A stretch of 59,999 nucleotides of DNA from a virus. Below the pieces are notes generated by a model. It ran no database searches and was not told the origin of the DNA. It saw nothing but the letters and a program-made list of their open reading frames with translations. Every line of letters starts with the position of its first letter. Positions within the stretch are counted from its first letter, which is position 1. This document shows, piece by piece, positions 8,722-53,854 of the stretch. The DNA lies in the IMG/VR virus record IMGVR_UViG_3300034158_000041, positions 1 to 59,999 of that record; one strand, 5' to 3'. Both the position numbers and the translations under genes were made by a program.

Positions 8722-8722
8722 A

Positions 8723-15474: not shown

Positions 15475-15479
15475 TCAGA

Positions 15480-17998: not shown

Positions 17999-20900
17999 CT
18001 TATGGATAGCCCCCTGGATTGCATGGACTCGGCGCCGATCCTGAAGACCTGCTCGGCAATTTCCCTATGGTTCAAATGGATATGATTGTGCACTTCCTGG
18101 ATGGCCTGCCCCTTGGCACCGCCTGACGCGGTCAGATCTATGATGGTCCTGGAGATGTCGGAGGGCAGAACCAGTTCTGTGCCCCTTTCGCCCACGGTGA
18201 TTGCCCTGGGGCCTTGGTTGGCTAGGTAGCCTTTAGCCGCGAAGATGGGCGGTAATTGTACACCTGCCCCGGCATTGCTATATGAAGAGCTTTTCGATGA
18301 ACTGCCAGATCCTTGGTAACTGGATATGCCCCCATTCTCCTGGAAGGTCATGGGATTGATGTAGCTGGTATATCCTTGCGGATTGGTGTATTTCAGGCCA
18401 TTCACCAGGACTGTATCACCAAGGCAGGTCATATCATTGAAGTTGCCATTGACATCGGCGCCATTCATGTTTATTGCCTTGCCAGAACTTCCGCCTCCTC
18501 CAGATCCTCCAAATATGCTGCTGCCCATACCTGCCAGGGTTCCGGCAAACTGCCCGAGGGCCCCTACAATGCTGCCCACGCCCGTTGCCAGATCAGTGGC
18601 TGCCTTTGCGCCAGAAGTTGCTAATTGATCTGCAGATCCTGATATCTTGCCCGCGCTTGAGTTCCATTGGGAGGCAGCGTTGGTGGCGGTGCTCATGCCT
18701 ATGGAGCCCTGCTGGTTAGCGGTGTTTATTCCCACCGAAGCCTGCTGATTAGCGGCATTGATGCCTATGGCTGCCCCTTGGTTCATTCCGCCAATGATGG
18801 CCGTTCTGCCATCTATGCCACCCAATCGGACAGCCTGCCCGGCATCGGTGGTAAACTTGGCCCCTATCTCAGCACCTAGCCGGAGTGCCGTGGCTGCATA
18901 GCCGGAAGCCTGAACCTGGACGGCGGCATTGGCCTGAGCCGCTGCCTGAGACGAAGATGCTGCAGCTTGGGCGGCTGATGTGGTTGTATTGAAAAATCCA
19001 GTTGCTGCGCCGTCTACGCCGGTTTTGAAGTTTAGGGTGGTGGTGTTCATGCTGGTTTCAGTGCGGTTCAGAGCACCATTCAAACCAACGGCGAAAGCGC
19101 CAACGCTGTTACCTACGCCCTGAAGGGCAACCACATTGCTTTCTCGTGCGCTCACGACATTAATTTCAGACGAGGTTTTTGCACTTGTCGTGGTAATTGT
19201 GGCTGCTTCTTTCGCAGCACCTACCTTTCGGTTGGCGGCTTCAATTGCGGCTGTCTTGGTAGAATACGTCCCTTCCATATAGGCTTTTGTTATATCATCG
19301 TATATCCGGAATTCCTTGTCTCCGGTTTGGCTGATGCTGTACTTGGAGGTGTCGTAAGTCTTTGGTGTGTATCCAGAAGACCCCGTGCTACTGCCACCAG
19401 AATAGTAGCTGGAGGATTTTCCATTGGTCACTTGACCGGACCAATATTTTTTGATATCTTCTAACTGTTTGTCACCCATACCGATGTTGATTTCTTCCTC
19501 TTTTCCTCCGAATGTTGCCCACGATGGCAAGGTAAACGTAGTGCTGACCGAATGCAGGCCTTCAGCGAGTGCGACCACAATAGAACCGACAAATCCTTTG
19601 CAGAATTCGTTTGCTGCATCCAGCCCAAGAGTGGCCCAGGATACCCCCCCGCCCGGAGATAGAACGCTTTTTATTGCAGAGTTAAGTTCGTCCGCAATCC
19701 ACAATCCGATATCCAACGCGGTTTTTATGGCATCAGCAAGCAAGGTTCCAGCCGTTGCTCCTAACGCAGCGGGTGAGCCAGAATCTACCCACGTCTTGAT
19801 ACTAGACTGAATCCCCGTTGCATAATCATTGATAGTGTCAATTCCACTTCGGATAGCTTTGCCAATATCTTCGCCGATTGGACCCCATTTCACCGTTTCC
19901 TTGATGCCCTTAACAATGCTGGAAGCCCAGCCGGATATAGTGCCTATCCCGGACTTGATCTTTTCCGCCAGGCTGGAGCCTTCCGTTCCCCATGTATGCC
20001 CGGATATGAACTTGGCGATCTTGCCACCGATGTCTTTCAGTGTATCGATTCCGGTGTTAATGGCATTGCCTATGGTTTGGCCCACACCTTCCCATTTCAC
20101 ATTGGCTAGGTAATCCCACACCCGTTGACCGATATTAGAGAGAGTGCCGATAGCTCCGCTTATGGTCGTGGTTATCGTTGTAGCAACGGCATTCCAGTTG
20201 ATGTTTGCGAATGCATTGTAAAGCGTTGTGGCTATGCCGGTCCAGTAGTCCTTAAGAGTGTTCAGATATCCGACGATAACCGATACCAGGCCGGTCCAAT
20301 TAATCCCAGCGATAGCATTGTATAAAGTTGTGCCTATACTGATAAACGCACTCGCTGCCTTAGTGCCAACGCTATTCCAATTGATGCCTTGCAGATATCC
20401 GAGCAATTGACCGCCAAGGCTCTCCAGTTCCTTCCATACGCCCTTTATGCCGGTCACTATGTAGCTGCCTACTCCGGCCCAATTGACGCCCCTGAGCCAA
20501 CCATAGAGCTGGCTGCCCAGTCCCTTCAGTTTCTCCCATCCGGTCTTGATTGCAGACGATATCGCATCTCCAACTTTCTTCCAGTCTCCTGATGTGAGTG
20601 CTTTGTAGAAATTTCGAAGAGCCGGAGCTCCGGTGGAAGAAAACCAATCCAGTGCCGCCTTGATGGTAGGCGTAAGGTCTTGCCCTATGCCTATGGCTAA
20701 ATCTACGGCAGCGCCCTTGGCTGCATCAAAGGAGCCTTTCAGAGTATTGAGCATGAGCTTTGCCATGCGTTCGGCCGCGCCCGTCGAAGTGTCCAGTTTG
20801 GCCTCGAACCCGTCTATTTCTTTGGTGGCTCCCGCAAGACCATAAATCAGGCCGCCACGAACTCCAAAGATCTCAGTGAATGCCTTGAGTCCATCACCGG

Positions 20901-21816
20901 ACGCATCGGCTTTTTGTTTCAGGGTTGATAAAACATCGGCAAAATCATGCGTTCTTGGATCAACGTCTTTGAGGGCGACCCCGATTCCGGCCATTGCCTT
21001 GCTTGCGGTGCTGGTGGGCGCTACCAACGTATTCATTACATCGACTAACGCAGTCCCTGCCTTTTCGCCCTTTATGCCGCTGTTCGAAAATACTTCAAGT
21101 GCCGCAGTTGTTTCTTCTAAAGATACCCCGGCCGCTTTCGCAACTGGCCCAGCATAAGATAGGGCATATTGCAGATCTTCCATACCCAATGCGGAATCAC
21201 CGCATGCCTGGGTGAATACATCGGATATCGTTCCCAAATCGTTGATCGATAGGCCATACTGGTTCATGGTGGCCATTGCCATAGACGCAGAACTGGCGAG
21301 ATCATAATTGGTGGCGGTTGCCAGGGAAAGAATGGGAGTTAGATTTTTTGCGCTAGCTGTCGCTACGTCAAAACCACCGGCGGCCAACCCTGCCAGAGCA
21401 GCCGCTATCTGGGTGGGATCAAATGCATTGGTGTTGAGCTGACCAAGTTCCCTAGATACCGCTATTACATGCTCTTTAACACCGTCGAATGCGGAGGATA
21501 ATGAAGTTCCATTCTTCTGAGCAATAGCAGAAAGATCCATCTTGCTTGCGGCATCGGCGGCAGCACTCTCGATGTCCATATAGGACTTGACGCCAAGCGT
21601 TGCCACGCCTGCCAGAGCAACGCCCAGAGCGGCAACGCCAACCATGAGGGCTTTGCCCATAGCCGCCCCGGCACTTGCTGCTCGACCTTCCAGGCCGGAG
21701 GCGAAAGACGAAAATTTGCCATGCGCCGATGACATGCCGGAGTTCAGAGGTCCATCATCAAGCTTGATGGTTGCGTATGCACTGCCTACCTGTTCACCTG
21801 GAATAAGAATCACCAA
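17995..21816 (-). CDS. tail tape measure protein, 1273 aa
   Basis: The longest gene. Residues 1-300 carry the typical start of tape measure proteins, including a hydrophobic stretch at about 52-70 and QLNTNAFDPTQIAAALAGLA, LEETTAALEVFSNSGIKGEK and PRTHDFADVLSTLKQKADAS. Residues about 400-700 contain tandem tryptophan-bearing repeats (GVNWAGVG, GINWNSVG, GINWTGL, NINWNAVA, NVKWEGVG) spaced about 35-40 residues apart. The C-terminal third is Gly/Ser/Ala/Gln-rich. Length suggests a tail near 190 nm by the usual 0.15 nm per residue. The start is a TTG (21816) or GTG (21813); no ATG fits. Confidence 0.9.
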   Translation of the reverse strand: MVILIPGEQVGSAYATIKLDDGPLNSGMSSAHGKFSSFASGLEGRAASAGAAMGKALMVGVAALGVALAGVATLGVKSYMDIESAAADAASKMDLSAIAQKNGTSLSSAFDGVKEHVIAVSRELGQLNTNAFDPTQIAAALAGLAAGGFDVATASAKNLTPILSLATATNYDLASSASMAMATMNQYGLSINDLGTISDVFTQACGDSALGMEDLQYALSYAGPVAKAAGVSLEETTAALEVFSNSGIKGEKAGTALVDVMNTLVAPTSTASKAMAGIGVALKDVDPRTHDFADVLSTLKQKADASGDGLKAFTEIFGVRGGLIYGLAGATKEIDGFEAKLDTSTGAAERMAKLMLNTLKGSFDAAKGAAVDLAIGIGQDLTPTIKAALDWFSSTGAPALRNFYKALTSGDWKKVGDAISSAIKTGWEKLKGLGSQLYGWLRGVNWAGVGSYIVTGIKGVWKELESLGGQLLGYLQGINWNSVGTKAASAFISIGTTLYNAIAGINWTGLVSVIVGYLNTLKDYWTGIATTLYNAFANINWNAVATTITTTISGAIGTLSNIGQRVWDYLANVKWEGVGQTIGNAINTGIDTLKDIGGKIAKFISGHTWGTEGSSLAEKIKSGIGTISGWASSIVKGIKETVKWGPIGEDIGKAIRSGIDTINDYATGIQSSIKTWVDSGSPAALGATAGTLLADAIKTALDIGLWIADELNSAIKSVLSPGGGVSWATLGLDAANEFCKGFVGSIVVALAEGLHSVSTTFTLPSWATFGGKEEEINIGMGDKQLEDIKKYWSGQVTNGKSSSYYSGGSSTGSSGYTPKTYDTSKYSISQTGDKEFRIYDDITKAYMEGTYSTKTAAIEAANRKVGAAKEAATITTTSAKTSSEINVVSARESNVVALQGVGNSVGAFAVGLNGALNRTETSMNTTTLNFKTGVDGAATGFFNTTTSAAQAAASSSQAAAQANAAVQVQASGYAATALRLGAEIGAKFTTDAGQAVRLGGIDGRTAIIGGMNQGAAIGINAANQQASVGINTANQQGSIGMSTATNAASQWNSSAGKISGSADQLATSGAKAATDLATGVGSIVGALGQFAGTLAGMGSSIFGGSGGGGSSGKAINMNGADVNGNFNDMTCLGDTVLVNGLKYTNPQGYTSYINPMTFQENGGISSYQGSGSSSKSSSYSNAGAGVQLPPIFAAKGYLANQGPRAITVGERGTELVLPSDISRTIIDLTASGGAKGQAIQEVHNHIHLNHREIAEQVFRIGAESMQSRGLSIR

Positions 21817-21843: not shown

Positions 21844-22628
21844 TCAGGGAATCCGCAAACCTATTGCGGCCCCTTGTCTTTTCAGTTCTTTCTTTTCATC
21901 CGGGCTTATTTCTTCTGGATAGAATTTTGAGAAGCTCGGAAACTTGTTTTTCTCACTCAGAAGAGAAGCCACAGCAGATCGAATCAGAACCACGGTAGCA
22001 TAATCCTCGGATGCCTTGCGTTTCTGTGCCCGGTTCCAAGCCAGAACTTTGCAGTTAATTTCGCCCGGAGTAAGTTCTAAAAATTCATGCGGAGATAACC
22101 CTAGATCTCCTATACAGAACTCTGCGGCTCTGTCCCAGTCCCATGCAGTTTTATTCTGGCATCGATTAGTTCTATCAGGGTCTTCTCCTTCTCCGCTTTC
22201 TCCTTCTTCTGGTCCTCTTCCATCTTCTCCTTGAGCTTTTTTCCGTCCGCACCTCGCGCGGCAGATACGGCCAAAGATAGGATCTCACAAAGAGCTTCGT
22301 GCTTTTCGCCGGTGTCGAGCTCGCCCTCTTCCAGGAACTGATCTCGGAGTTCTATCGCTTCCTCAAACTTCATGCCCCGGTGTTCGGGCATTCCGCCTTG
22401 AATGCCCTTCCAGAGAAGATAAGCCTGGGTTTCGGGATCGCCCAGATTTTGGAGTAGGTTTTCCAGACCGAACTTCTGATTATCAACTCTTCCAAAGAGT
22501 TCCTTGCCAACTGTCTTGGAAATGCTGATCTGTACCAGGCCAGGATATCTTAATCTGTATTCTGTGCCATTGATTGTTATAGGCTCAAATATGTCGCTCA
22601 TGTCTATTTCTCCCTGTGATAAGTTCAT
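21844..22628 (-). CDS. tail assembly chaperone G-T frameshift product
   Basis: The 0 frame from 22628 can slip -1 at A AAA AAG (22236-22242) and then reads through a frame open to the TGA at 21844, giving about 261 residues. The -1 extension has no ATG of its own. It contains AWDWDRAAEFCIGDLGLSPH, EFLELTPGEINCKVLAWNRA and QKRKASEDYATVVLIRSAVA, the pattern of lambda T-like tail chaperone C-termini. Position just upstream of the tape measure is where lambda-type G/G-T frameshifts occur. In lambda, G and G-T coat the tape measure and recruit tail tube subunits. Confidence 0.8.
22110..22628 (-). CDS. tail assembly chaperone G, unshifted product (172 aa)
   Basis: Encodes MSDIFEPITINGTEYRLRYP near the start, typical of small tail chaperones, and a Lys/Glu-rich helical C-terminus (KKLKEKMEEDQKKEKAEKEK). 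Two starts are possible: 22628, which overlaps the upstream stop, or 22601 (MSDIF) with a nearby GGGAG. Terminates at 22110 when ribosomes do not slip at the heptamer. Confidence 0.8.
   Translation of the reverse strand: MNLSQGEIDMSDIFEPITINGTEYRLRYPGLVQISISKTVGKELFGRVDNQKFGLENLLQNLGDPETQAYLLWKGIQGGMPEHRGMKFEEAIELRDQFLEEGELDTGEKHEALCEILSLAVSAARGADGKKLKEKMEEDQKKEKAEKEKTLIELIDARIKLHGTGTEPQSSV
22236..22242 (-). promoter_or_regulatory. -1 programmed ribosomal frameshift site A AAA AAG
   Basis: In the G frame the codons are GGA AAA AAG, placing the canonical slippery heptamer A-AAA-AAG across codons 129-131. The -1 frame downstream is open for 130 codons and encodes a recognisable chaperone domain. 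A downstream stimulatory structure was not verified. Confidence 0.8.
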
Positions 22629-22873
22629 CTGTTTAAAATTTTCAAGCTATGAATAGGATAATATTCGGTCGTTTCTTTTACGTGATCCGCGTCCGGATAG
22701 GCAACGATTGGCCGATCACCCACTAGGATCAAACGATCAACTTTCAAGATAGGAAATTCGTTTCCAAATCCCCATTCGATTGAGAACCCACGAACTCCTT
22801 TCTGGAAATCGTCGCCTATATAAAGGTGAGACTTCCAAGGCCCGGGTTCATTGATGATAGTTATTTCTGCCAT
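22625..22873 (-). CDS. hypothetical tail-region protein, 82 aa
   Basis: Not recognised. Small beta-rich protein between the tail tube genes and chaperone G; its stop overlaps the chaperone start (ATGA). A minor tail or assembly role is inferred from position. Confidence 0.6.
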   Translation of the reverse strand: MAEITIINEPGPWKSHLYIGDDFQKGVRGFSIEWGFGNEFPILKVDRLILVGDRPIVAYPDADHVKETTEYYPIHSLKILNR

Positions 22874-22960
22874 ATTTCCCCCTGTTCTAAGTACCTATTT
22901 TGAATTAAAGTCGCTTAAAATCGATTACACGAATTATAAAAGTAACAAGAAAATAAATAG

Positions 22961-23005
22961 CAGGGAGACCCTCGGGTCTTGGTAGACCGTCATTGGGGCT
23001 CTCTG
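22961..23005 (-). terminator. structured spacer, possible attenuator/terminator
   Basis: Immediately downstream of the tail-tube-like gene on the minus strand. An outer stem pairs CAGGGAG (22961-22967) with CTCTCTG (22999-23005), and an inner hairpin uses AGACC/GGTCT around 22966-22979. It could lower expression of downstream genes relative to the abundant tube protein. Confidence 0.4.
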
Positions 23006-23006
23006 T

Positions 23007-24002
23007 TCACACTTCGTGATACAATAGCGGCCCTATGCCTTGGAGCTGCAGGTCAGACTCATACAGCCCTTCCAGCTTCATGTCCATTGGCAAGCCTGTC
23101 AGGTGGCACAAGCCAGAGACCATCTTCAAGGATCCCGTGGTGATATCCAGGTATGCCCTCACCAGGATCATGGTTCCAATCTTGTCGAAATCGGCATCCT
23201 GGTCTCGGCCTCCGGTCATCATCACAGCCGATTTGGCGTTCACAATCGCGGCCCCTGTCTTGCCCGCCGGATAGTCAACACTCACCAGAGCATTGAGCAC
23301 AGAGTCAGCTTCCACATGAGCCTTGATTGCGGCTGCCGTGCTGGTTGGGTTGGCCCCGGTGGTTCCCACGGTCACTGTATATTTGTGGGTTCCTGCATTG
23401 TACGCAACTTGCAAAGTTGCGTCATTTCCTACAATGTACTCCACCGATCGCAGGTTTCCTGGACTGCCCCAGCTCTTCTCGGCCCATATGAGGTCAGAAT
23501 TGTCGAGCGTGCAATCCAGCAACGCCCATGCCCGGCCATAGAAGAAATGCCTCTGTGCAGTTCCATCCCATGTGAGAAGGGTCTTGATGTAGGATCGCCA
23601 GATCACAGGATCATTGAGGGCAGTCGCAAAGACGGTTACGTCCTTGGTATCGGCTTTGCTATCAAAGTTGAACCCATAGACTCCGCCCAGGGCCTGTGGA
23701 GTATGCCAATAGACATCACAGGTCACATTGCCCGATGTATAAGTTCCTGGCTTGAACTCCACGAACCCGGCCGCATGATAGACCTGCAGGATGTCAGCCG
23801 CGGGCACTGGTGTGGCCCCGATATAGAAGGTTGTGGCCTGGTATGGATCCCAGAATGAATGATCTGTGGGCGATGCTCTGGCAGTGATATAGAACTGTTG
23901 AGTGCTTCCCAACCTAGTCATCGCTTCACCGGTCGCAGCCGTTGAGGTGCCGGTGGTCGAAAAAAGGGAGGCGACTTGGCCGCTCCTCGGCTCTCCGGTC
24001 AT
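23007..24002 (-). CDS. tail tube-like protein with extra domain, 331 aa
   Basis: Residues about 105-165 (VYGFNFDSKADTKDVTVF, NDPVIWRSYIKTLLTWDGTA) parallel the 150-aa protein encoded next to it (DGWNFDNKVDSKETTCAA, VVTWKSYIATLRDASGT), so both appear to share a tube-type fold. This one adds a N-terminal segment and a C-terminal domain of about 80 residues ending in LPMDMKLEGLYESDLQLQ. It may be a second tube or tail-decoration protein. Confidence 0.6.
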   Translation of the reverse strand: MTGEPRSGQVASLFSTTGTSTAATGEAMTRLGSTQQFYITARASPTDHSFWDPYQATTFYIGATPVPAADILQVYHAAGFVEFKPGTYTSGNVTCDVYWHTPQALGGVYGFNFDSKADTKDVTVFATALNDPVIWRSYIKTLLTWDGTAQRHFFYGRAWALLDCTLDNSDLIWAEKSWGSPGNLRSVEYIVGNDATLQVAYNAGTHKYTVTVGTTGANPTSTAAAIKAHVEADSVLNALVSVDYPAGKTGAAIVNAKSAVMMTGGRDQDADFDKIGTMILVRAYLDITTGSLKMVSGLCHLTGLPMDMKLEGLYESDLQLQGIGPLLYHEV

Positions 24003-24014
24003 CTATGACCCCCC

Positions 24015-24467
24015 TTAGCTGTACCCGCCGAGCTGCAGGCCGTCAACATCCTGGATCTGCACGTTCACGCTCATGCCTTCGCCTTGAACCCCGTCCAGCT
24101 TTGCCCCGACCGGGAAGGAAGTTGCAATGCAATCTGCATACAGGTAATGGGTCGTGTCCTGGTAGAATCGGATCTCAGCAACCGCGTTTGCTGTGGTGAA
24201 CAAAGTCCACAGAGCTTTCTGCCCGGGATCATCCAGCGCCAGATACTTGAATGAGATCGTGCCCGATGCATCTCGCAGGGTGGCTATGTAGGACTTCCAG
24301 GTCACAACTCCGGCTGCTGTTATTGCCGCGCAAGTTGTTTCTTTGCTGTCCACCTTGTTATCGAAATTCCATCCATCCACACCAGAGATGAAGGTCTCAG
24401 ATCCTGATAAGGGAGTGATCGAAACCTTTAGAGTTTGGCCGCTAATTGGGCCTGTTATGTCTGCCAT
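24015..24467 (-). CDS. major tail tube protein, 150 aa
   Basis: Size, position (start of the tail module) and motifs such as TWKSYIATLRDASGTISFKY and YLYADCIATSFPVGAKLDGV match siphoviral major tail proteins, which stack as hexameric rings. It has no signal peptide. A GAGGT sequence precedes the ATG, and a 16-bp palindrome lies just upstream, suggesting it heads a regulated operon. Confidence 0.75.
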   Translation of the reverse strand: MADITGPISGQTLKVSITPLSGSETFISGVDGWNFDNKVDSKETTCAAITAAGVVTWKSYIATLRDASGTISFKYLALDDPGQKALWTLFTTANAVAEIRFYQDTTHYLYADCIATSFPVGAKLDGVQGEGMSVNVQIQDVDGLQLGGYS

Positions 24468-25524: not shown

Positions 25525-25629
25525 ATGAATTTCAGAGATGCTAAACTGACAAGAGATCTTGATAAGCTGGAAAGCCTGATTCGCAACCTATCAAAAGAGG
25601 AATGGAAAGAACTCTGCGATCGGTTCTAG
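25525..25629 (+). CDS. small helical protein, 34 aa
   Basis: Short frame three bases after the upstream stop, encoding a charged helix (RDLDKLESLIRNLSKEEWKE). Its stop overlaps, by 4 bases, the stop of the convergent head gene. Existence supported mainly by tight packing. Confidence 0.4.
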   Translation: MNFRDAKLTRDLDKLESLIRNLSKEEWKELCDRF

Positions 25630-25970
25630 CCAACGTGTTTTTTGATGTATTTGGGAAGCTTACTTATATTCGATTGTACCGTATCTCCGATAAAACCAGC
25701 GTGCCCCGTTGTATGATGCAACGATCGATCCATTTCCTGTTTGAATATATACGCCTTCGCTGCTCCTCCGCCCCCCACATAAATACACCGGTTTTTATCA
25801 TCCCTCTCATATCCCAGAGAGTTCCGCATAGTTCCGCCATTTACCGGAGCGACCGGGCAATTGATCTTTGCTTGGGGAAGCCAGACAACAAGGGCGAACT
25901 CTTCCAGGCCATCCATTCCAGCCTTGATGACCCGGTTCTTAAACGGCCCATCGTTCCAGGTAACACTCAT
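25626..25970 (-). CDS. HK97 gp10-like / neck protein, 114 aa
   Basis: Size and layout fit a head-tail joining protein: an N-terminal FKNRVIKAGMDGLEEFALVV, then GGTMRNSLGYERD and YIFKQEMDRSLHHTTG, with a basic end KLPKYIKKHV. Family members adopt an alpha/beta fold and lie between the head completion genes and the tail tube, as here. Overlaps the Mu F-like gene by 4 bases. Confidence 0.65.
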   Translation of the reverse strand: MSVTWNDGPFKNRVIKAGMDGLEEFALVVWLPQAKINCPVAPVNGGTMRNSLGYERDDKNRCIYVGGGGAAKAYIFKQEMDRSLHHTTGHAGFIGDTVQSNISKLPKYIKKHVG

Positions 25971-26908
25971 GGCAATATCTCACCAGGGCGCGTCGGACCG
26001 CTGCCTTTTATCGTCAGCTCTGCCAATTCATCGGTTACTCTACTCTTTAGAGAAACGCCTTTCTTGGATTCTTTCGGCTCTTTGGCAACCTTCGATTCTT
26101 CTTTTCTCTCTGCAACCTTTGGCATGTATGGTTTGGACGACTTCGCAACTACGATATTTGTGCATCTGCATCGGTTATGCAATGGCGGGCCTCTGCCATC
26201 TCCTGGAAAGTTGCCGCCAATCGCGGCTCTTTTGCCTTGCATACCGCCACATTTCGAGCATCGGTGGTCGTCTGCTGCTGTTAGCCATTCCTGCTCATAT
26301 TCATCCTTGCTTATGATGCCCCGCTCTACCGCGTTTTCGTTTACCTGTCTGCTGCCTTCGTTGGTCGCGGTGTGGCTTTCGGTGAGCCCGATGTTGTCAG
26401 CTCTCAACTTAATATAGAACTTAATTCTTTTTGCAACTAATCGTTCCACTGATATCTGATCCATACCAGAATCTAAGAGCGCCTTTCGATAATTCTCCGC
26501 TGCCTTGGCGTGTTGTGGCAAAATTCCTATATGTTGCCTAATAAGTTTGCTTTGCTCTTGCGGAGATAAGCCTTCTTCCAGTCCTCTTCTTGTTATATCC
26601 CGGATGGTTGCCTTGGTGGTATCGTTTATAAGTGTGATCTGATTGGCCCCATATTCCTTAATCCAGGCGATTGCTTCAGGCGATGTGATATCGAACTTGA
26701 TTCCAGTTCCAAGGATCTTTCCAAGCTCTCCTAATTGAGCTTCGCCTCCTTCATAAAACGCAGATTCTATGAGCGGTGTAGGATCAAATCTTATGATCTT
26801 GGTATTGGCACGCCCGGTTTTGGCTACTTCATCAGCCCACGATTGGAACTCATCTGAGATGTTTTTGGCCCACTTGTCTCCAATCGTCTGGATGGGAGTT
26901 TCTATCAT
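25967..26908 (-). CDS. minor head protein, Mu gpF/SPP1 gp7-like
   Basis: 313 residues. Residues 165-245 carry the family hallmark: RADNIGLTESHTATNEGSRQ, then EQEWLTAADDHRCSKCGGM and PPLHNRCRCTNIVV, with the Cys/His set that holds the small C-terminal domain. Such proteins are packaged with the portal and aid head morphogenesis or DNA ejection. It is unusual that it is far from the portal gene (40536-41894). The last 60 residues are a Lys/Glu-rich tail. Confidence 0.8.
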   Translation of the reverse strand: MIETPIQTIGDKWAKNISDEFQSWADEVAKTGRANTKIIRFDPTPLIESAFYEGGEAQLGELGKILGTGIKFDITSPEAIAWIKEYGANQITLINDTTKATIRDITRRGLEEGLSPQEQSKLIRQHIGILPQHAKAAENYRKALLDSGMDQISVERLVAKRIKFYIKLRADNIGLTESHTATNEGSRQVNENAVERGIISKDEYEQEWLTAADDHRCSKCGGMQGKRAAIGGNFPGDGRGPPLHNRCRCTNIVVAKSSKPYMPKVAERKEESKVAKEPKESKKGVSLKSRVTDELAELTIKGSGPTRPGEILP

Positions 26909-27668: not shown

Positions 27669-27767
27669 TCATTCCCTGGCTTTCCTTTCCCGTTCCTGGC
27701 ATATCGGGCAGATCTCGGCCTTGGCCGGCATCAGGTGATCGCCATGCTGCTGGTGGGGCTCAGGCAT
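27669..27767 (-). CDS. small CPIC-containing protein, 32 aa
   Basis: Starts at 27767 within the end of the upstream gene and encodes EICPICQERERKARE at its C-terminus, one zinc-knuckle half. Existence is supported by tight packing only. Confidence 0.4.
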   Translation of the reverse strand: MPEPHQQHGDHLMPAKAEICPICQERERKARE

Positions 27768-28002
27768 AGAAGAGCCCCGTTGTGTTGGTTAGGTTCAGGC
27801 TGCTATTGTTTCCCAAGAATGCCCATATCCCGGCCAACCACGTATCGTGTTGCCCCGCCAGGTCTTGTGGGATGGCAATTATGGAACTTGTGGCTTGAGA
27901 CATCGCGTCAGGGAACACAAGCGGCCCGGTGTTGACAGTTGCCATGTCTGCGACCGGGATAGTCGCATTCATGAGCAGTGTAACCATGAGAATCGAGATC
28001 AT
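27760..28002 (-). CDS. small secreted protein, 80 aa
   Basis: Start at 28002 overlaps the stop of the upstream membrane protein. N-terminus SILMVTLLMNATIPVADM is signal-peptide-like; the C-terminus has N-linked sequons (NNSS, NLTNTT). In the lysis-like region; function unknown. Confidence 0.55.
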   Translation of the reverse strand: MISILMVTLLMNATIPVADMATVNTGPLVFPDAMSQATSSIIAIPQDLAGQHDTWLAGIWAFLGNNSSLNLTNTTGLFYA

Positions 28003-28553
28003 ATAGTCCACGCCAACCCTCTGCCAGCGTCTGCTATTTTGCGGCGCCCCTTCCAGGCAAGAAACAGGAGAACCGCTATCGATCCGATCAGTGCCAACGT
28101 GATATGCAGGCCCCATTCTGCAATCATCTCATTGAGCCCCGGCCAATACACGCGGGCAGTTATTGCACTTAGAAGGAAGACAATAAAGGCCAAAACCGGG
28201 CTACTCGTTACGGTCTTCCATCCCACGCCCACAAGCCCTTTCTGGTAATCTACTATTATTCGCTGTTCCCTATAACATTGTAATTCCGTTTTTATTGGGC
28301 CGATTTCATCCATTAAACGCTGGTGGTTGGTAGCTATCTCGACGCGAAGTACCTCATTATTGGCACGGTTACGGGCATCGAACTCCTCCATGAGCCGCGT
28401 GCAATTATCTTGCCCGACTATGCGTTTATCCATGCCAGAAACCGCGTCTCGAAGCTTCTCGAAGTCGTGGCTCAAAGCTTCGTTGCTTTCTTTCCCGTCA
28501 TTCTTGACATCTTCGAGATTTGAAAGAATTAACTTTAGAGTGTCGCCGTCCAT
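27999..28553 (-). CDS. coiled-coil protein with two C-terminal membrane spans
   Basis: 184 residues. The first 105 are soluble and coiled-coil-forming (DGKESNEALSHDFEKLRDAV). Two hydrophobic segments follow: about 118-135 (SPVLAFIVFLLSAITARV) and 150-167 (ITLALIGSIAVLLFLAWK). The layout, next to a peptidase and another small membrane protein, suggests a holin- or spanin-like lysis protein. No family is certain. Confidence 0.6.
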   Translation of the reverse strand: MDGDTLKLILSNLEDVKNDGKESNEALSHDFEKLRDAVSGMDKRIVGQDNCTRLMEEFDARNRANNEVLRVEIATNHQRLMDEIGPIKTELQCYREQRIIVDYQKGLVGVGWKTVTSSPVLAFIVFLLSAITARVYWPGLNEMIAEWGLHITLALIGSIAVLLFLAWKGRRKIADAGRGLAWTI

Positions 28554-28559
28554 GCAGCC

Positions 28560-29210
28560 TCAAGAGAATGGCAATTGTGCCAACTCAGAGGCAGTACCCC
28601 GGATTTCCGCATTCTGGCTAGGGATATAGTATCTGGTCCAATAATAAGCATAGTAGCTTACTTGGTCCCTAGGAGCGGCTGGATGGCCTCTGAGGGCAAG
28701 GTTCAGCAACCAAGGCCAAATGCCTCTCTGGATGCCAGCTATCAGCACAACCCAGGCTAACTCATTTTCGCCACAGGCTGACCAAGATATGACTTGCGCA
28801 CCCGGGACTTCATGGATTCCAGCTCCATAGCAACAGCCAAAGAAGAGGTCGCAATTCACGCCGGGCCGGAGCCCTCGCAGGATGGCATCTACCTCATAGT
28901 CCCACACCAGCCCTCCGGATTCCCAGTCAGAAGCGCACAAGCATTCTGATGTGCCGTCGGGTTCCGCGCTCGGAACTTTGCCACCATGCCCGAAGAAGCC
29001 GAAGCATATCGAATCTCCTGCATATGAGGTATTTACCAGGTCACGCAAGCCGTTTATGATCGTGGCCTTGGATGGATTCGATTGGCACTGAACCACCTGG
29101 AAGCCTCTCTGCAATAGGCTTGTCCTTGTGTCGTTCATATCATTGATATTATTTTTCATGGTATAGGGAGCCCGATAGGCGTCCACCGCTGCAAGAAATG
29201 CCCTTTTCAT
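28560..29210 (-). CDS. caspase-fold (C14/metacaspase-like) peptidase, 216 aa
   Basis: Starts KRAFLAAVDAYRAPYTMKNN like metacaspase p20 subunits, followed by NDMNDTRTSLLQRGF and a T-x2-I-I-N-x-L helix. The catalytic His lies in ICFGFFGHGG (about residue 75) and the catalytic Cys in DLFFGCCYGAG (about residue 126), each after a beta strand as in C14 enzymes. No signal peptide. GGAGG precedes the ATG. Position next to small membrane proteins suggests it could cut cell-envelope proteins during lysis or act in a host interaction. No cell-wall-binding domain is present. Confidence 0.75.
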   Translation of the reverse strand: MKRAFLAAVDAYRAPYTMKNNINDMNDTRTSLLQRGFQVVQCQSNPSKATIINGLRDLVNTSYAGDSICFGFFGHGGKVPSAEPDGTSECLCASDWESGGLVWDYEVDAILRGLRPGVNCDLFFGCCYGAGIHEVPGAQVISWSACGENELAWVVLIAGIQRGIWPWLLNLALRGHPAAPRDQVSYYAYYWTRYYIPSQNAEIRGTASELAQLPFS

Positions 29211-29257
29211 GAATGGCCTCCATAATTGAAATTATTATTAGCAAAAAATAATAGAAG

Positions 29258-29512
29258 CTATTTACATTTAGCTTCAAGTTCTGCGATCTTTTCAGCCTTC
29301 GCGCCCTGAGTCATCACAATGATTCCGCCGCCGTACTTGCGGGCAATCATGACAATGATGAATATCAGAGCGGAAATAGCACTTATCTGTTCCACTGTTA
29401 CTTGTATTCCAGTGATACCAAGTGCTGAAAGAGCAGTTATGATAAGCCCGATCGTTGCGGCGATCTCCGTCTTGGAATCCCACGGCATCTTAACTTCTGA
29501 TTCGTCTACCAT
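29258..29512 (-). CDS. holin-like small membrane protein, 84 aa
   Basis: Two hydrophobic segments: residues about 16-36 (IAATIGLIITALSALGITGI) and 44-58 (ISALIFIIVMIARKYGG), with a short charged C-terminus (AEKIAELEAKCK). Size and topology match phage holins. Starts directly after the upstream stop (TAA then ATG). Confidence 0.55.
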   Translation of the reverse strand: MVDESEVKMPWDSKTEIAATIGLIITALSALGITGIQVTVEQISAISALIFIIVMIARKYGGGIIVMTQGAKAEKIAELEAKCK

Positions 29513-29797
29513 TTAAATCATACTCCTTGGATCAGTCACGAACTGGATTGCGCCCATGTATGCAGCCTTTGCAGGGACATAATTGGATGGGATCTTTCCA
29601 GCGTCTCCTATGTCCAGAACCTTGGACTGTTCCTTTGTGGCTCCGACGCTTGCAAGATCTCCGCTCATGCCGGTATCCATGCCTTTGATCTCATCAAATG
29701 AAATCTTGGAGAGCTGAACAGTTCCGTTTTCCATTGGCCATGCCGAGGCCATACCGATTGCAGCGAGTGCAACCATAATTATCAGAATTGTCTTCAT
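29513..29797 (-). CDS. small secreted protein, 94 aa
   Basis: Signal peptide KTILIIMVALAAIGMASA, then a short mature domain with no known motif. The signal has the A-x-A cleavage end common in methanogen exported proteins. Overlaps the upstream gene by 4 bases. Confidence 0.6.
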   Translation of the reverse strand: MKTILIIMVALAAIGMASAWPMENGTVQLSKISFDEIKGMDTGMSGDLASVGATKEQSKVLDIGDAGKIPSNYVPAKAAYMGAIQFVTDPRSMI

Positions 29798-30225
29798 TTG
29801 TGAACACCTGTATCAAAGGGCTCCGCGCCCATGCTTGGATTGAGGCTCATGTGGATCTTCGGGTCGACCCCATACGTCCACATGTAGGTTCGCCTATCGA
29901 GAAGAGGGCCGTTCTGGCCTGCGCGATACCGCTTAAATGCTAAATCACCAACTGATCCACCGGGAATCTTGGCCTGCTCCTCATCCATGAGTGGCACGCA
30001 GCCCAACCAGTCATCGTTCTCTGTGATGGTCGCGATCCATTGGCCGATTCCTTTTTCAGGAACATCCGGAACTTCCAGCACTCGCGCGCACTTAGGACAG
30101 CCCACAAGTACTTTTCCCTCGGTCTTGCCGCGTTGAACCGATGCCAGCTTCAAGTCTTGCGCTGAAATCGAGATCTCTTCTTCGCAGACCGGACAAATTA
30201 TTTCCAAGTCGGGTATTTTTATCAC
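29794..30225 (-). CDS. zinc-ribbon protein, 143 aa
   Basis: An N-terminal zinc ribbon: IICPVCEEE (about 9-17) and VGCPKCARV (about 41-49). The remaining 95 residues form a separate domain rich in Trp, Gly and Asp with DRRTYMWTYGVDPKIHMS. Not recognised. Confidence 0.6.
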   Translation of the reverse strand: MIKIPDLEIICPVCEEEISISAQDLKLASVQRGKTEGKVLVGCPKCARVLEVPDVPEKGIGQWIATITENDDWLGCVPLMDEEQAKIPGGSVGDLAFKRYRAGQNGPLLDRRTYMWTYGVDPKIHMSLNPSMGAEPFDTGVHK

Positions 30226-30252
30226 CTATTATTGAAAAAGGATAATAGCCGC

Positions 30253-30504
30253 CTATTGAACAGGCGGAGTTTCGGGGTCTTCGTCTCCCTCGGGGCGTGC
30301 CACTACAACGGGGGTATCCTGGAGGGGAATGTTCAGTGTGGGTATGATAACTTCGTCGATGAACTTCTTCGCCCGATCGCGAGTGAAATCATCAATTCCG
30401 GCGCCATACATCCGGGAGCCGCTATTCACAACTTCTTTCATCAAGGTCTCGAAGTACTCTCCGAGGGTGTTGACGGTATCATTTTTTCCCTTTTTGAAAA
30501 CCAT
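30253..30504 (-). CDS. hypothetical protein, 83 aa
   Basis: Not recognised. A helical core (about 12-55, TLGEYFETLMKEVVNSGSRM) and an acidic, proline-rich C-terminus (PEGDEDPETPPVQ). AGGTG-type sequence just before the ATG. Confidence 0.55.
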   Translation of the reverse strand: MVFKKGKNDTVNTLGEYFETLMKEVVNSGSRMYGAGIDDFTRDRAKKFIDEVIIPTLNIPLQDTPVVVARPEGDEDPETPPVQ

Positions 30505-30698: not shown

Positions 30699-31841
30699 CT
30701 AGCTGGAATTACCAGCCAATTCGTTTGGCGACGAATTGTCGCCCATTTCGATGGTTTTATTCAGGATGATCGGCTCTTCTATAGGATCCGTTTCATTGAT
30801 GGTCGGTTCTACCGCAAATACCGATTCATCAACTTCTGCCATTGTCTTCAGAGCGGGGGGATTGGTTATAGTAACCCTCAACGGAGCCTCCCAAATCTCT
30901 TCCGAGCACTGACCAAGTGAATCAACCGCAATGACCCGCACATCGAAGAATCCTGCGTTGTTCCAGCTATGAGAAGCCGTCACCACTGCACCGGAAGGAT
31001 AAAAGCCAGTGGTTTCTGTTGCGTCACCCCAGCAGAATATATACTGGATAGTATCTCCATCAGGATCGGTGGCACTTGTGGTGTAGCTATAAGTTACGCC
31101 TGCGATGCCCGAAGTTGGACCGACTGGAGTAGATGCCGTAGTGGGGGGATAATTTATTCTCGGACCCAACACGTTTACGACTCTGGCAACGGACCATCCA
31201 GAGGTTGCTCCATGTTCGTCTGTAGCCGTAGCACGCACGTTAAATGTCTTCTGGGTGTTGGGCGATACCGTCCATCTATGAGACGCGCTCGATTCTGTCC
31301 CAGAGGCCACCAGCGCGGTCGTGGTTGTGGTTCCGTCTCCCCAGTCGAAGGTGTACTTCACCCGGTCTCCATCAGGATCGATTGCATATACAGAGTAACT
31401 ATATGTGTTACCGGATTTGGCGGCTGTTGTGCCCCAAGGAGTATATGGGGCGTATGGTGCTTGATTTGTCGCGGCCTGATCTGAAATTGTCACCAATGTG
31501 CCTTTCTGTGAAAAGGTAGACACTGACCCAAAGCTATCTATTGCCTTGACGTACACGTTGTATGTCTTGGTTGTTCCAGTTACCGGCCATTTATGGGAAA
31601 CTGTCACGACCTGACCAGATGGGAAAAGGCCGGTGGTTGTCGTGGTGCGATCTCCCCAATAAAACACATACTTGACTTTATCTCCATTGGGATCGATTGA
31701 ACTGGTGGAATAGCTGTATGAAGTGCCTGATATGCCCACAGTCGGGCCACTTGGAAGAGAAGGAATTGAAGGGGGGCGATTTAACGCAGTGCATGTTGAC
31801 ATCATCGCGAGGATGACCAAAAAGATTAATATTTTTCTCAT
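30699..31841 (-). CDS. secreted protein with three PKD domains, 380 aa
   Basis: Signal peptide RKILIFLVILAMMSTCTA. Three tandem PKD domains of about 90-95 residues each contain FYWGDRTTTTT, FDWGDGTTTTT and FCWGDATETT, with the preceding DPDGD or DPNGD repeats. PKD domains are adhesive beta-sandwiches common on Methanosarcinales surface proteins. The last 60 residues are acidic with no anchor visible. A GTG start at 31850 overlapping the upstream stop is possible; ATG 31841 gives the better signal peptide. Confidence 0.85.
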   Translation of the reverse strand: MRKILIFLVILAMMSTCTALNRPPSIPSLPSGPTVGISGTSYSYSTSSIDPNGDKVKYVFYWGDRTTTTTGLFPSGQVVTVSHKWPVTGTTKTYNVYVKAIDSFGSVSTFSQKGTLVTISDQAATNQAPYAPYTPWGTTAAKSGNTYSYSVYAIDPDGDRVKYTFDWGDGTTTTTALVASGTESSASHRWTVSPNTQKTFNVRATATDEHGATSGWSVARVVNVLGPRINYPPTTASTPVGPTSGIAGVTYSYTTSATDPDGDTIQYIFCWGDATETTGFYPSGAVVTASHSWNNAGFFDVRVIAVDSLGQCSEEIWEAPLRVTITNPPALKTMAEVDESVFAVEPTINETDPIEEPIILNKTIEMGDNSSPNELAGNSS

Positions 31842-31846
31842 CTCGA

Positions 31847-32818
31847 TCACCCGTAAAGCTTCCAGATGCCGGTCTTGTCACCATTTCCAAGTGTGCGCTT
31901 TTCGACGGTGTAGTAATGCATCACCTGTCTGGTGTCATACTTGAACTCAGGCTTGGTATAAAGATCTCCTAAGCCAAGCGTATGTCCCATCTCATGCAAT
32001 GCTACCGACTGGACATCAACGCCGATTGTAGAGCGATCGGTGCGCCACTTGTAATCTGTATTGAAGACCAGATCCGAATCCAGAGCCGTATTGTATCCAT
32101 CGACCTTTTTAAAGTTGTAATAGGTTCTGGCGTAAGCTAAACAGTATGCGTTGCCGAACGGGCTCCAACTGACGGTGTTTATTTTGTTATATTTTTCGGC
32201 AACCACATTAGGATTCAAAGTGACCAAGCCGCTATCTGCGAAAAGGTTCTGGTTTGTGGCATCATCCCATGAGTTGGCTGCATTAGATATGGCGCTCTGC
32301 ACCGCACTGGTGGTTATTCCCTCTGCCGCCATGTTTGCGTCATTCTTCAACACCCATTTGAGTTGAGGATCTTTTATATTCCATCTATAACCGAATAAGG
32401 TATAGGCTTCTGCCCTTCCACCATCTGAAGTAAATGCCGGACCTGTTATCAGGTTAGTAACCCGGCCATCCATCATGTGGAAATTGATAGACTGAAGACC
32501 TTCATCTGCATCAATCAGGATACCATTGACCTGCCCTTTCAGAGAGCTATCTGTGACTTCTATATCTGCATCCAGGTCGCCCTTTGCTGCAATCATCAAG
32601 CCATTGGCCTCAATGGAGGCCTCGCCAGTTCCTGCAATCTCCCTGGAGCCCGACATTTGGCCACCTGCCAGAGTTGTGCTACCTGTCAGGCCGGCCTCTG
32701 GACTGAGATCATAGGATTCTCGTATTTCATTACCTTGCCCGTCGCCCATGGAAATGGATATGGCCGAAGCGGCATTGATCATAGCTGCTAGGATAAGCAG
32801 CGACAGTATATTTTTCAT
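31847..32818 (-). CDS. secreted matrixin-like metalloprotease, 323 aa
   Basis: Signal peptide NILSLLILAAMINAASA. Residues 20-115 form a beta-rich domain resembling the N-terminus of the protein at 8723-9700. Residues about 145-310 form a metzincin domain: zinc motif LHEMGHTLGLGDLY (HExxHxxGxxD, with Asp as third ligand) and Met-turn VMHYYT. Probably cleaves host surface or S-layer proteins at entry or release. Overlaps the PKD gene, so the two are probably made together. Confidence 0.85.
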   Translation of the reverse strand: MKNILSLLILAAMINAASAISISMGDGQGNEIRESYDLSPEAGLTGSTTLAGGQMSGSREIAGTGEASIEANGLMIAAKGDLDADIEVTDSSLKGQVNGILIDADEGLQSINFHMMDGRVTNLITGPAFTSDGGRAEAYTLFGYRWNIKDPQLKWVLKNDANMAAEGITTSAVQSAISNAANSWDDATNQNLFADSGLVTLNPNVVAEKYNKINTVSWSPFGNAYCLAYARTYYNFKKVDGYNTALDSDLVFNTDYKWRTDRSTIGVDVQSVALHEMGHTLGLGDLYTKPEFKYDTRQVMHYYTVEKRTLGNGDKTGIWKLYG

Positions 32819-32842
32819 CTATTATAAAAAAAAGAATGACCC

Positions 32843-34273
32843 CTAAGGAGCCACATTATCGGGTGAATTGCCAGACATGCCGGAGAATACGAAGTTCGAC
32901 CAGTAGATAGCACCGCCCATCTCGCCAGCCACATTATTCGTGATGGTTCCGCCAGTTCTAATGATGGTATTCCAGGCATTCATGACGCCACCGCCCATCA
33001 TTGCAGCAGTATTATGGTCTATAGACCCGCCTAGAAGTTTGAGCGTGCCCTCGAACTCTCGATCAGGGGAAACGTCCATGAATATGCCACCTCCATTAAA
33101 GACCGTGGCATTATTGTGGTCTATGGAGCCGCTTATCAGGGTCACGTTGGCCTCATCACTGTAGATAGCGCCCCCACTGTTGGCATTGTTATAAGACAGC
33201 GTGCTGCCATCGATCACCAACATCGAACTGCGATCATGAAACACGGCGCCGCCGATTCCGGCAGTATTGTGTGTAATCAGCGTGCCATTGCAGTAGGTGG
33301 TTGCGAAGTTATCATCATAGATCGCGCCTCCATATATGGCTGTATTGTGATCTATAGAGCCCGCATTCAAATATGCGGTTCCAAGTGTCTCGTGGTAGTC
33401 CTGAGCATCATTGTAGATGCCGCCGCCCGAGCCCAGGTTATTGGTGACTGTGTTGTATGAAATGGACCCCCCATTCATGATAAACAAGCCCCAGGTATAG
33501 ATGCCGCCACCGTACCAGTAACCGGTATTGTGGGAAATCGAGCCGTTCATGGTAAAGCTAGAACCACCATCGGAATAGACGCCCGCGCCGCTCCGAGCAG
33601 TATTGTAGTCTATCTTGCCACCGATCTGGTTTACCTCACCCCAGTTATAGATGCCGCCACCACCATACGTGGCCGCATTATTGGATATGTTGGCATTGTC
33701 TAGGAGAACATCACCAGTCGCAGCGTTGCAAATTCCGGCCCCATTTGGTGCTGTATTTTCCGACAACTCTGTGTCAATCAAATCAAGATCGCCAGCGTTA
33801 TAAATAGCTCCGCCGTCGCCCTCGCTTGATACGGTATTCTCGGATAATAGGCAATTTTCAAATGTTGCGTCTCCTGCATTGAGAACTCCTCCCCCATAAG
33901 TAGCGTGATTATCAACTATGGAAACGTCCTCTGCGTCCAAATTGCCATTATTTCGAATGCCTGCACCAGACGGAGAGCTACCATTTCGAATGGCAAACCC
34001 GGATAGAACCAAGCTCTTGCCAGCATCTATCAAGATGCATCGGCCAGAAAGTGATCCATCCAGAATGGCGTCATCGCCATATATGGCTAGGTTTTTGTTT
34101 ATAGTGAGATGCTCGTAATATGTCCCCGGCGCAACCAGAATCGTATCTCCAGCAGAACTTGCCGTGATCGCGCTCTGAATCGTGGTGTATGTTTGTGTGG
34201 GTGACACATGCAGTTCCGTGCAGTCGACCACAGATATCATGGCCAGTAAAATAATAAATAGAAATGTCTTCAT
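32843..34273 (-). CDS. secreted right-handed beta-helix protein, 476 aa
   Basis: Signal peptide KTFLFIILLAMISVVDC, then TYTTIQSAITASSAGDTILV and APGTYYEHLTINKNLAIYGD, the standard beginning of parallel beta-helix surface proteins. It is followed by more than ten 25-30-residue coils with repeated N-x-A-x-x-GGG-I-Y/N motifs (for example NATYGGGVLNAGDATFENC). Similar proteins are abundant on methanogen surfaces and in polymorphic outer-membrane-like families. It may be a host-surface adhesin or decoy. Confidence 0.8.
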   Translation of the reverse strand: MKTFLFIILLAMISVVDCTELHVSPTQTYTTIQSAITASSAGDTILVAPGTYYEHLTINKNLAIYGDDAILDGSLSGRCILIDAGKSLVLSGFAIRNGSSPSGAGIRNNGNLDAEDVSIVDNHATYGGGVLNAGDATFENCLLSENTVSSEGDGGAIYNAGDLDLIDTELSENTAPNGAGICNAATGDVLLDNANISNNAATYGGGGIYNWGEVNQIGGKIDYNTARSGAGVYSDGGSSFTMNGSISHNTGYWYGGGIYTWGLFIMNGGSISYNTVTNNLGSGGGIYNDAQDYHETLGTAYLNAGSIDHNTAIYGGAIYDDNFATTYCNGTLITHNTAGIGGAVFHDRSSMLVIDGSTLSYNNANSGGAIYSDEANVTLISGSIDHNNATVFNGGGIFMDVSPDREFEGTLKLLGGSIDHNTAAMMGGGVMNAWNTIIRTGGTITNNVAGEMGGAIYWSNFVFSGMSGNSPDNVAP

Positions 34274-36078: not shown

Positions 36079-36636
36079 CTATGCAAGATAAGTATAATAT
36101 TCGACTTCCCCGCCAAGCCCCTCGTTATCATCGGTCTGCTTGATGGTGTAATTTTTCGTGCCCTTTCTCACAATATCGTTTACTGCAAGCAAGGTATCCG
36201 AGAATATCTGAGTATCATTAATCGTAGTCCAAATTCCAGACGCATCTGAATGGCCGCTTTGATGAGGCTCGATCCTGGTCATGATGGCCGTTGTTGTCTC
36301 GACCTGAATGGGAGCCCCGCCAGAATTGATGCATTCGATCAAGACATGACAATCCAGGCCTGAATATGTCACAACAGGCAAAGCAGAAAGATTTGTAGTC
36401 GTCTGCTTGGTCCCGGCCTGAAGAAATGTCAGTGTCTCAGTGCCAAGCGTTATTGTGCCCGCGCAGTCAGTGTGACCAGTTGCCACCGAAACAGTAACCT
36501 TGCAGCGAAATGCCGTGCTTGGAGCCGATCCTAGAAGAGTAAGCGGGCTTGTGGGCGGAACCGCATCATAAAGCTCCTTTGGTGCGGTTGTGACCTTGTA
36601 AGCTCCGGTGGTCAGATACATATCAATCAGGGACAT
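36079..36636 (-). CDS. head-region structural protein, 185 aa
   Basis: Beta-rich protein with TLLGSAPSTAFRCKVTVSVA and DCHVLIECINSGGAPIQVE. Placed between the connector and the secreted block; likely a minor head component by position. Not recognised. Confidence 0.5.
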   Translation of the reverse strand: MSLIDMYLTTGAYKVTTAPKELYDAVPPTSPLTLLGSAPSTAFRCKVTVSVATGHTDCAGTITLGTETLTFLQAGTKQTTTNLSALPVVTYSGLDCHVLIECINSGGAPIQVETTTAIMTRIEPHQSGHSDASGIWTTINDTQIFSDTLLAVNDIVRKGTKNYTIKQTDDNEGLGGEVEYYTYLA

Positions 36637-36943: not shown

Positions 36944-37474
36944 TCAAGGCACAGGTCTCACCGCGCCCGCAATATACTGCTTCATGAAATCATAAGCTTC
37001 CTGACTATGCAAGCCCTTCCATTTACGGGCTGCTCCAGGTGCATAGGTCTCAGATAGCTTTCCAAGCGAAAAGCTGGTCACTCCCTGCTCCTGGAGCTTT
37101 CTGCGTTTCTGATCTCCTGGAGAGGAAACATAAGCATCATAGAGAGCTAATGCTTCCTCCAGACATGCTTTCTTAACCTCTTCTGGCACCAGTTCAGCAT
37201 TCCCGGTATAATCCCAATTATAGACCCTGCCATTGATGACCCTGGGGAATTGGCGAGCCTGATAGCCAGTGGGAGGATTGAGCTGGTCTATGGGATAGTA
37301 AGTTGATCCTTTCAGATATAGGGAATCTATTATTGCTGTGGCTTTCTGTAAATACCAGGTCTGGATGGCATCGCTCGCGGCCAAGAGCGCGATTGCCGAT
37401 GGCCTGGGGTCTGATGCTAATCTGGTTTCGAGATCGGCTATAGTCAGGATGTATGAATCGGCAACGTCAACCAT
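36944..37474 (-). CDS. head-tail connector protein (gp6/DnaT-like), 176 aa
   Basis: A helical protein with ATAIIDSLYLKGSTYYPIDQ, YQARQFPRVINGRVYNWDY and VPEEVKKACLEEALALYDAY, the pattern of the phage DnaT-like or head-tail adaptor family encoded after the capsid gene. It ends in SFSLGKLSETY and a hydrophobic helix, typical of adaptor C-termini. Confidence 0.75.
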   Translation of the reverse strand: MVDVADSYILTIADLETRLASDPRPSAIALLAASDAIQTWYLQKATAIIDSLYLKGSTYYPIDQLNPPTGYQARQFPRVINGRVYNWDYTGNAELVPEEVKKACLEEALALYDAYVSSPGDQKRRKLQEQGVTSFSLGKLSETYAPGAARKWKGLHSQEAYDFMKQYIAGAVRPVP

Positions 37475-37663: not shown

Positions 37664-38278
37664 TCAATAGAACCACACCGTTATGGTATTGCCATCCAAG
37701 GCGCTTGAGAGGTCGATTGTGTTCAGTGATATGACGGTCGAGCTTGCGGTCACTGTTGGGGCCGTGGTCTCTTTCACGCCATTAAGCGTTGCCATGATCA
37801 CCCTTGTATTGCTTGCCAGAGGGGTATTCAGTCCAAGAGCCTGGCCATATCCGAGATTAAATGAGTTTGCTGCTCCGGTGGTACAGTTAAAGCTCGTGAC
37901 GGCGCTAAATGCTTTGGTGGTGTATTTTCCGAGATCACTTGATACCCAGGTCAATTTCTCAGAAATGACATTTCCATAGAAATCCGTGCCATTAATCAGA
38001 ACATTGCCGGTTATGGCGCTTCCCGGGGCGACGCCCACAACACGCGGCACGTCTGGTGATGGGTCTTTGCCGGCGATTGCTATTTCGGCTGCAGTCTTTC
38101 CGACGGTGAGATTACATGAGAGCGTGTTCCAGATGTCAGTAGAACTCTGCAATCCTGCGCCTCGGATGGTCTGGACGGTCACAGGAACCTTATAGTTCCC
38201 GGGAGCCAGGCCATACCAAGCGGCACCACCAATCCCGGCCAGTATCATCAGGACCAAAAAGATAGAAAGATATTTCAT
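37664..38278 (-). CDS. secreted or membrane-anchored structural protein, 204 aa
   Basis: A hydrophobic N-terminus (YLSIFLVLMILAGIGGAAWY) acts as a signal or anchor. The remainder is beta-rich (VPVTVQTIRGAGLQSSTDIW). Its gene lies directly after the major capsid gene, a place normally used for a decoration protein, so a signal segment here is unexpected. Confidence 0.6.
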   Translation of the reverse strand: MKYLSIFLVLMILAGIGGAAWYGLAPGNYKVPVTVQTIRGAGLQSSTDIWNTLSCNLTVGKTAAEIAIAGKDPSPDVPRVVGVAPGSAITGNVLINGTDFYGNVISEKLTWVSSDLGKYTTKAFSAVTSFNCTTGAANSFNLGYGQALGLNTPLASNTRVIMATLNGVKETTAPTVTASSTVISLNTIDLSSALDGNTITVWFY

Positions 38279-42758: not shown

Positions 42759-42800
42759 TCATGCTCCTTTGTAGAGAATGGAATCGGTGGAATAGATCAT
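42759..42800 (-). pseudogene. remnant of the original portal start (13 codons)
   Basis: An ATG at 42800 overlaps the large terminase stop (ATGA), as expected of the natural portal start. It encodes MIYSTDSILYKGA and then a TGA. The intact portal begins MIKIIYDTESILYKGAPWPP. The shared segment IY-x-T-x-SILYKGA has 10 identical residues; nine use a different synonymous codon and only the first (Ile, ATC) is unchanged. So this looks like the displaced original 5' end, cut off by insertion of the endonuclease cassette. Confidence 0.75.
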
Positions 42801-53785: not shown

Positions 53786-53854
53786 GCTACCCACCGAAGC
53801 CTATAAATACCCTCGGCCCTATTTATCTTATTGTCCATCTAGCATCTCTCCTTT

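Follow-up and report, generated by a model that had tools for sequence, protein, structure and literature searches.

A possible lysis cassette and the exit of archaeal viruses

The gene set xhlA-xhlB-xlyA of PBSX is an example of the holin/endolysin cassettes of tailed bacteriophages. For archaeal viruses, a 2015 review proposed exit via holins and S-layer proteases and stated that no viral holin gene or S-layer-degrading enzyme was known, and that no holin had been identified in psiM-type viruses (PMC4456609). In a 2025 survey of 129 archaeal dsDNA viruses, lysis proteins were detected in only 10.9% (PMC12596118). Viruses of sheathed archaea encode sheath-like proteins, a proposed exit factor for protein-enveloped archaea; these proteins have no protease nature but mimic structures in an amyloid-like way (PMC11576556). 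In bacteria, gasdermins with adjacent caspase-like proteases are established (PMC9079055). Searches of an open-access library turned up no paper on a caspase within the lysis cassette of a phage or an archaeal virus.

The exit of tailed viruses from archaea without murein or pseudomurein is unsolved. Here we describe a cassette that supplies a named enzyme and a named pore candidate for it, in a 59,999-base IMG/VR virus record (IMGVR_UViG_3300034158_000041; positions 1 to 59,999, hereafter the window). A caspase gene stands next to a holin-like gene and the order is kept in a related virus, which suggests that the protease helps to break the host open at exit.

As in bacteriophage holin/endolysin cassettes, a small transmembrane (TM) holin-like gene lies directly before the gene of a putatively cytosolic hydrolase on the late strand. 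The hydrolase lacks a signal peptide, like holin-dependent endolysins, and an XhlA-type coiled-coil TM protein is encoded next to it, like in PBSX. In contrast to the bacteriophage cassettes, this one belongs to an archaeal virus, its hydrolase is predicted to be a caspase-fold protease where those have a murein hydrolase, and its putative holin is recognized by weak matches. Pfam gave no murein-hydrolase match among ten proteins around and upstream of the caspase, and PHROGs gave none for the cassette proteins. With a caspase fold and no such match, the cassette at most works like a holin/endolysin cassette and is not strictly one.

As a putative exit enzyme of an archaeal tailed virus, expected to cut protein or peptide bonds with a Cys nucleophile, the window enzyme resembles the pseudomurein endoisopeptidases PeiP and PeiW of psiM-type methanogen viruses; unlike these cutters of pseudomurein, it has a C14 caspase fold. 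With metacaspases and bacterial orthocaspases (GSU0716, Yca1, TbMCA2, AtMCA9) it shares the fold, the His-Cys dyad and an ND motif near the N-terminus. It differs from them in consisting of one short domain encoded within a viral cassette, and in having neither the Asp two residues before the Cys nor the acidic stretch after the His; metacaspases have an acidic S1 pocket for Arg or Lys at P1. A C14 protease gene beside the gene of a putative membrane-acting protein also recalls bacterial gasdermin systems, from which the locus differs in having no gasdermin domain nearby and in being viral and late.

Genome layout and host

The window is from a head-tailed virus. The genes that define its layout and bear on its host are:

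58459-59184, PCNA sliding clamp, matching 21 phage records, all of archaeal viruses
42797-44062, minus strand, terminase
41891-42727, minus strand, HNH
40536-41894, minus strand, portal
39306-39896, minus strand, scaffold, directly before the MCP
38288-39295, minus strand, MCP
36944-37474 and 36079-36636, minus strand, connectors
30699-34273, minus strand, exported proteins (PKD, matrixin, repeat protein)
31847-32818, minus strand, exported matrixin (M10) metalloprotease (PF00413, 4.5e-11), upstream of the cassette and outside it
27760-30225, minus strand, cassette
25967-26908, minus strand, MuF
25626-25970, minus strand, neck
23007-24467, minus strand, tail proteins
17995-21816, minus strand, tape measure

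Judged by the sequence matches of its PCNA, an archaeal host is well supported. Three tandem tail proteins match BK063672 (vir515, stated host Methanosarcinales) at 36-48% identity, and a 604-aa tail protein, the terminase and the primase do so at 34%, 32% and 35%, respectively. The host is likely a methanogen and probably belongs to Methanosarcinales. Both the PCNA and the vir515 matches agree with the archaeal virus assumed in the original prediction, made from the letters of the window.

Host assignment through an MCP search of cellular genomes was discarded, as it returned only Clostridia prophages. The nearest MCPs there are from prophages of Lachnospiraceae and other Clostridia, at up to 47% identity, implying a common origin of the head genes with those of Firmicutes phages. 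That the MCP (38288-39295, minus strand) is nearest to Clostridia prophages although the virus is archaeal is a sign of cross-domain sharing of head genes.

Several other genes deserve mention. The three tandem paralogous tail proteins (14061-16187, minus strand; about 235 aa each), which have three matching proteins in vir515, are likely receptor-binding or fibre variants. Another secreted protein (8708-9700, plus strand) is also matrixin-like; its zinc motif is degenerate, with HEMGE replacing HExxH, and it is possibly an inactive relative of the 31847-32818 matrixin. Possible auxiliary genes encode a B12-binding/radical-SAM-like protein (56766-57845, plus strand) and a DUF5131 protein (53060-53794, minus strand). 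A signal-peptide protein straight after the MCP (37664-38278, minus strand) recalls the sheath-like proteins by position and size. No PDB sequence match was found for it, and a sheath-like reading was set aside; its counterpart in the related virus described below is 36-38% identical.

Gene order of the cassette

We compared the cassette with that of a related 64-kb virus, IMGVR_UViG_3300002171_000008 (G003), whose MCP is 77% identical to that of the window. The cassette genes of the window, in the direction of transcription, are:

29794-30225, minus strand, Zn-ribbon protein of 143 aa with CxxC motifs, first gene of the run; same slot in G003
29513-29797, minus strand, small protein of 94 aa with a signal-peptide-like N-terminus, from its sequence
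29258-29512, minus strand, holin-like small protein of 84 aa with two hydrophobic stretches and a charged C-terminus; weak holin-family matches
28560-29210, minus strand, C14 caspase-fold peptidase of 216 aa (PF00656; His75, Cys127), without signal peptide
27999-28553, minus strand, coiled-coil protein of 184 aa with two C-terminal TM segments, from its sequence
27760-28002, minus strand, small secreted or membrane-anchored protein of about 80 aa, homologous to G003 20559-20879

The Zn-ribbon gene overlaps the following secreted-protein gene by 4 nt, and no gap separates the latter from the holin-like gene. The caspase ORF, which has an SD-like GGAGG upstream, starts 47 nt past the holin-like gene, and the coiled-coil gene starts 6 nt past the caspase. 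The last secreted-protein gene overlaps the coiled-coil gene by 4 nt; its real start (28002) lies inside a longer listed ORF. In the window and in G003 alike, the cassette belongs to the late structural strand, with connector genes ahead of it and tail genes behind.

The two small membrane proteins that the original prediction saw flanking the peptidase (27999-28553 and 29258-29512) are present, and the small secreted proteins that it placed nearby occur on both sides (29513-29797 and 27760-28002). Its extent of 27760-30504 has to be shortened: the cassette proper covers about 27760-30225, and ORF 30253-30504 encodes a soluble protein outside it.

The 84-aa protein weakly matched the SPP1 holin (0.058) and the phrog_263 holin (0.013), and its G003 counterpart weakly matched the holins phrog_34682 (0.017) and phrog_297 (0.052). 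At 0.1, no holin match was obtained for six class-preserving shuffles used as controls, for two further window proteins (one small TM, one exported) or for the vir515 small TM protein. Set against these clean controls, the matches of both small TM proteins are suggestive of holin identity.

A predicted caspase-fold peptidase

Pfam placed the 28560-29210 product in PF00656 Peptidase_C14 (E 1.1e-7; score 32.2 bits, cut-off 21.4), and a PDB sequence search returned GSU0716 and metacaspases (3e-6 to 2e-3). The AlphaFold model (pLDDT 91.1, pTM 0.89) matched metacaspase 9 in Foldseek (E 2e-12, TMq 0.83-0.87). The His of FGHGG and the second Cys of FFGCCYGAG aligned with the metacaspase His and Cys. 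The product is thus predicted to be a C14 caspase-fold peptidase with an intact dyad. The family and both sites had been named from the letters at the outset, and the confident model, with its metacaspase matches, agrees with them.

Only N23, D24, H75, E83, D104, C127 and G163 (window numbering) are invariant across 12 viral C14 sequences. They include the dyad, and the loss of His or Cys in relatives, taken beforehand as a sign against an exit role, was therefore not seen. The window caspase retains the ND motif. The Asp two residues before the Cys, kept in the other 11 of the 12, is Gly here, so its specificity has probably changed. It is also the most divergent member, with the longest branch in a tree of viral C14 sequences that is itself unresolved. 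No signal peptide precedes the first strand of the fold, with which the protein directly begins. No close relatives were found in IMG/VR or the phage collection, neither the window nor the G003 caspase had a PHROG match, and the confident matches among predicted viral structures were all from viruses of eukaryotes.

Conservation in related viruses

In G003, the corresponding genes are:

18359-18844, Zn-ribbon protein
18844-19116, secreted protein, similar in type to window 29513-29797
between 18844-19116 and 19282-19452, extra ORF of 52 aa
19282-19452, holin-like protein
19456-20196, C14 peptidase
20203-20574, coiled-coil TM protein
20559-20879, secreted protein
22544-23314, MuF

The six-slot order is common to both viruses and is found in the same place, between the connector genes and MuF. 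The two caspases are 25-32% identical, and a pairwise test supported their common descent (z 26.6). The last secreted proteins are also related (window 27760-28002 against G003 20559-20879; Smith-Waterman z 6.2, 0 of 1000 shuffles), and common descent of the holin-like pair received weak support (p 0.01). The coiled-coil, first-secreted and Zn-ribbon pairs had no detectable sequence homology in these tests. Across these comparisons, slot and type are conserved more than sequence, as is usual for lysis genes. Unrelated C14s from other viruses give the G003 caspase higher scores than the window caspase does; given this and the 25-32% identity, the window and G003 copies may be separate acquisitions.

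In vir515, which is related in tail, terminase and primase, the cassette slot holds a Zn-ribbon gene (14866-15156, matched by the window Zn-ribbon at z 5.8) and a small TM gene, and the caspase is absent. The caspase is therefore not essential to the slot. No C14 was detected in MCP relatives at 36-46% by a profile search that is weak on divergent copies: when PF00656 was run against the record of the window itself, the loose first look missed the caspase that hmmscan of the translated protein scores above the cut-off. Apart from G003, the closer MCP relatives are short contigs, which break off ahead of the cassette region, and portal and G003-caspase scans yielded no additional long relative.

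A possible role in exit and alternative explanations

Our preferred reading, to which we give close to an even chance of being right, is that the virus has a lysis cassette of the holin/endolysin type for an archaeon without murein, with a metacaspase-like protease in place of the murein hydrolase. It is directly supported by the caspase fold, the dyad, the gene order and the conservation of the same slot in G003, a second virus keeping this order in this place, and gains from the small TM genes that adjoin C14 in other viral contigs. We infer the pore formation, protease activity, substrate and timing as follows. Late in infection, folded caspase would accumulate in the cytosol. Once the product of the holin-like gene immediately upstream had opened the membrane, the protease would gain access to S-layer or other envelope proteins and cleave them, helped by the coiled-coil membrane protein and by the small secreted proteins. 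Against lysis count the weakness of all holin matches, the chance that the window and G003 caspases were acquired separately, the exported matrixin in the same genome and the several C14 loci without lysis neighbours. For the lysis cassette raised as a possibility in the original prediction, the G003 order and the holin-family matches speak in favor and the vir515 slot without a caspase speaks against.

The protease may instead act inside the cell on a viral substrate and not on the S-layer, its cleavage of the coiled-coil membrane protein or the holin-like protein switching on permeabilisation in the fashion of gasdermins. In two viruses the caspase gene has a membrane-protein gene as its immediate neighbour on either side, the protease lacks a signal peptide, and the bacterial gasdermin systems provide a precedent; however, a gasdermin domain is absent from all neighbours examined, and with no similarity detectable between the sequences of the two coiled-coil proteins, no conserved cleavage site is visible. 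We consider such a triggered pore unlikely. It is improbable, too, that the caspase cuts host proteins for takeover, as a programmed-death mimic or in disarming defence, with the membrane neighbours incidental. Caspases are mostly known as intracellular regulators, the specificity of this one has probably changed with the lost Asp, and some viral C14 genes have no lysis neighbours, but the gene is part of the late structural strand, where connector and tail genes and not early replication genes surround it, and its slot is conserved in G003. PADLOC found neither a gasdermin nor any other partner gene of a defence system and matched the C14 proteins only with a generic caspase profile, leaving the programmed-death or defence role once offered as an alternative with little support; one G003 protein gave a weak coiled-coil match to LmuB (0.0036).

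The position between head-connector and MuF/tail genes in both viruses would also suit a protease that processes head, connector or tail proteins, or that rides in the particle to aid entry. Maturation proteases normally sit between portal and MCP, however, a separate scaffolding protein is encoded directly before the MCP, vir515 has no caspase and yet builds a related tail, and membrane-protein neighbours would be unexpected, so that we hold a virion or assembly role to be very improbable. Least of all do we expect the matrixin at 31847-32818 to be the envelope-cutting exit enzyme and the caspase to be minor. With its signal-like N-terminus and intact zinc motif (HEMGHTLGLGD), it could reach the S-layer as a secreted protease without a holin, but an all-against-all comparison found no matrixin counterpart in G003, where the caspase was found.

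Other viral C14 loci

A scan of viral contigs for C14 gave 18 loci. Counting the window and G003, a small TM gene adjoins the C14 gene in 8 of 14 cases, compared with 43 of 298 (14%) for other genes (Fisher p 4e-4), a count based on crude gene calls and on loci that are not fully independent. In L063, the clearest further case, C14 comes after genes for a holin (phrog_2359, 1.8e-4), a TM protein and an amidase, in this order; its direct C14 neighbour is the amidase, which places it outside the 8 of 14. In L065 and L067, C14 lies between coiled-coil-TM and holin-like genes, and in L055, L060 and L068 no lysis neighbours were found around it. Caspase-fold proteases could be a recurrent, undescribed class of lysis enzyme that partners holins in tailed viruses of archaea and bacteria, replacing the endolysin and cutting surface-layer protein in murein-less archaea, a generalization that we regard as rather doubtful.

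Three of the IMG/VR contigs carry C14-like genes (L065 5953-6741, L067 5881-6753 and L069 5926-6735) in which the Cys segment (ADSCFS) comes ahead of the His segment (NSTHGTQL). From the sequences, the His strand seems to have moved to the C-terminus; an AlphaFold model of one such permuted C14 reached a pLDDT of 36. The Cys-before-His order is identical in these three divergent loci, and GIY-YIG genes are found nearby in two of them.
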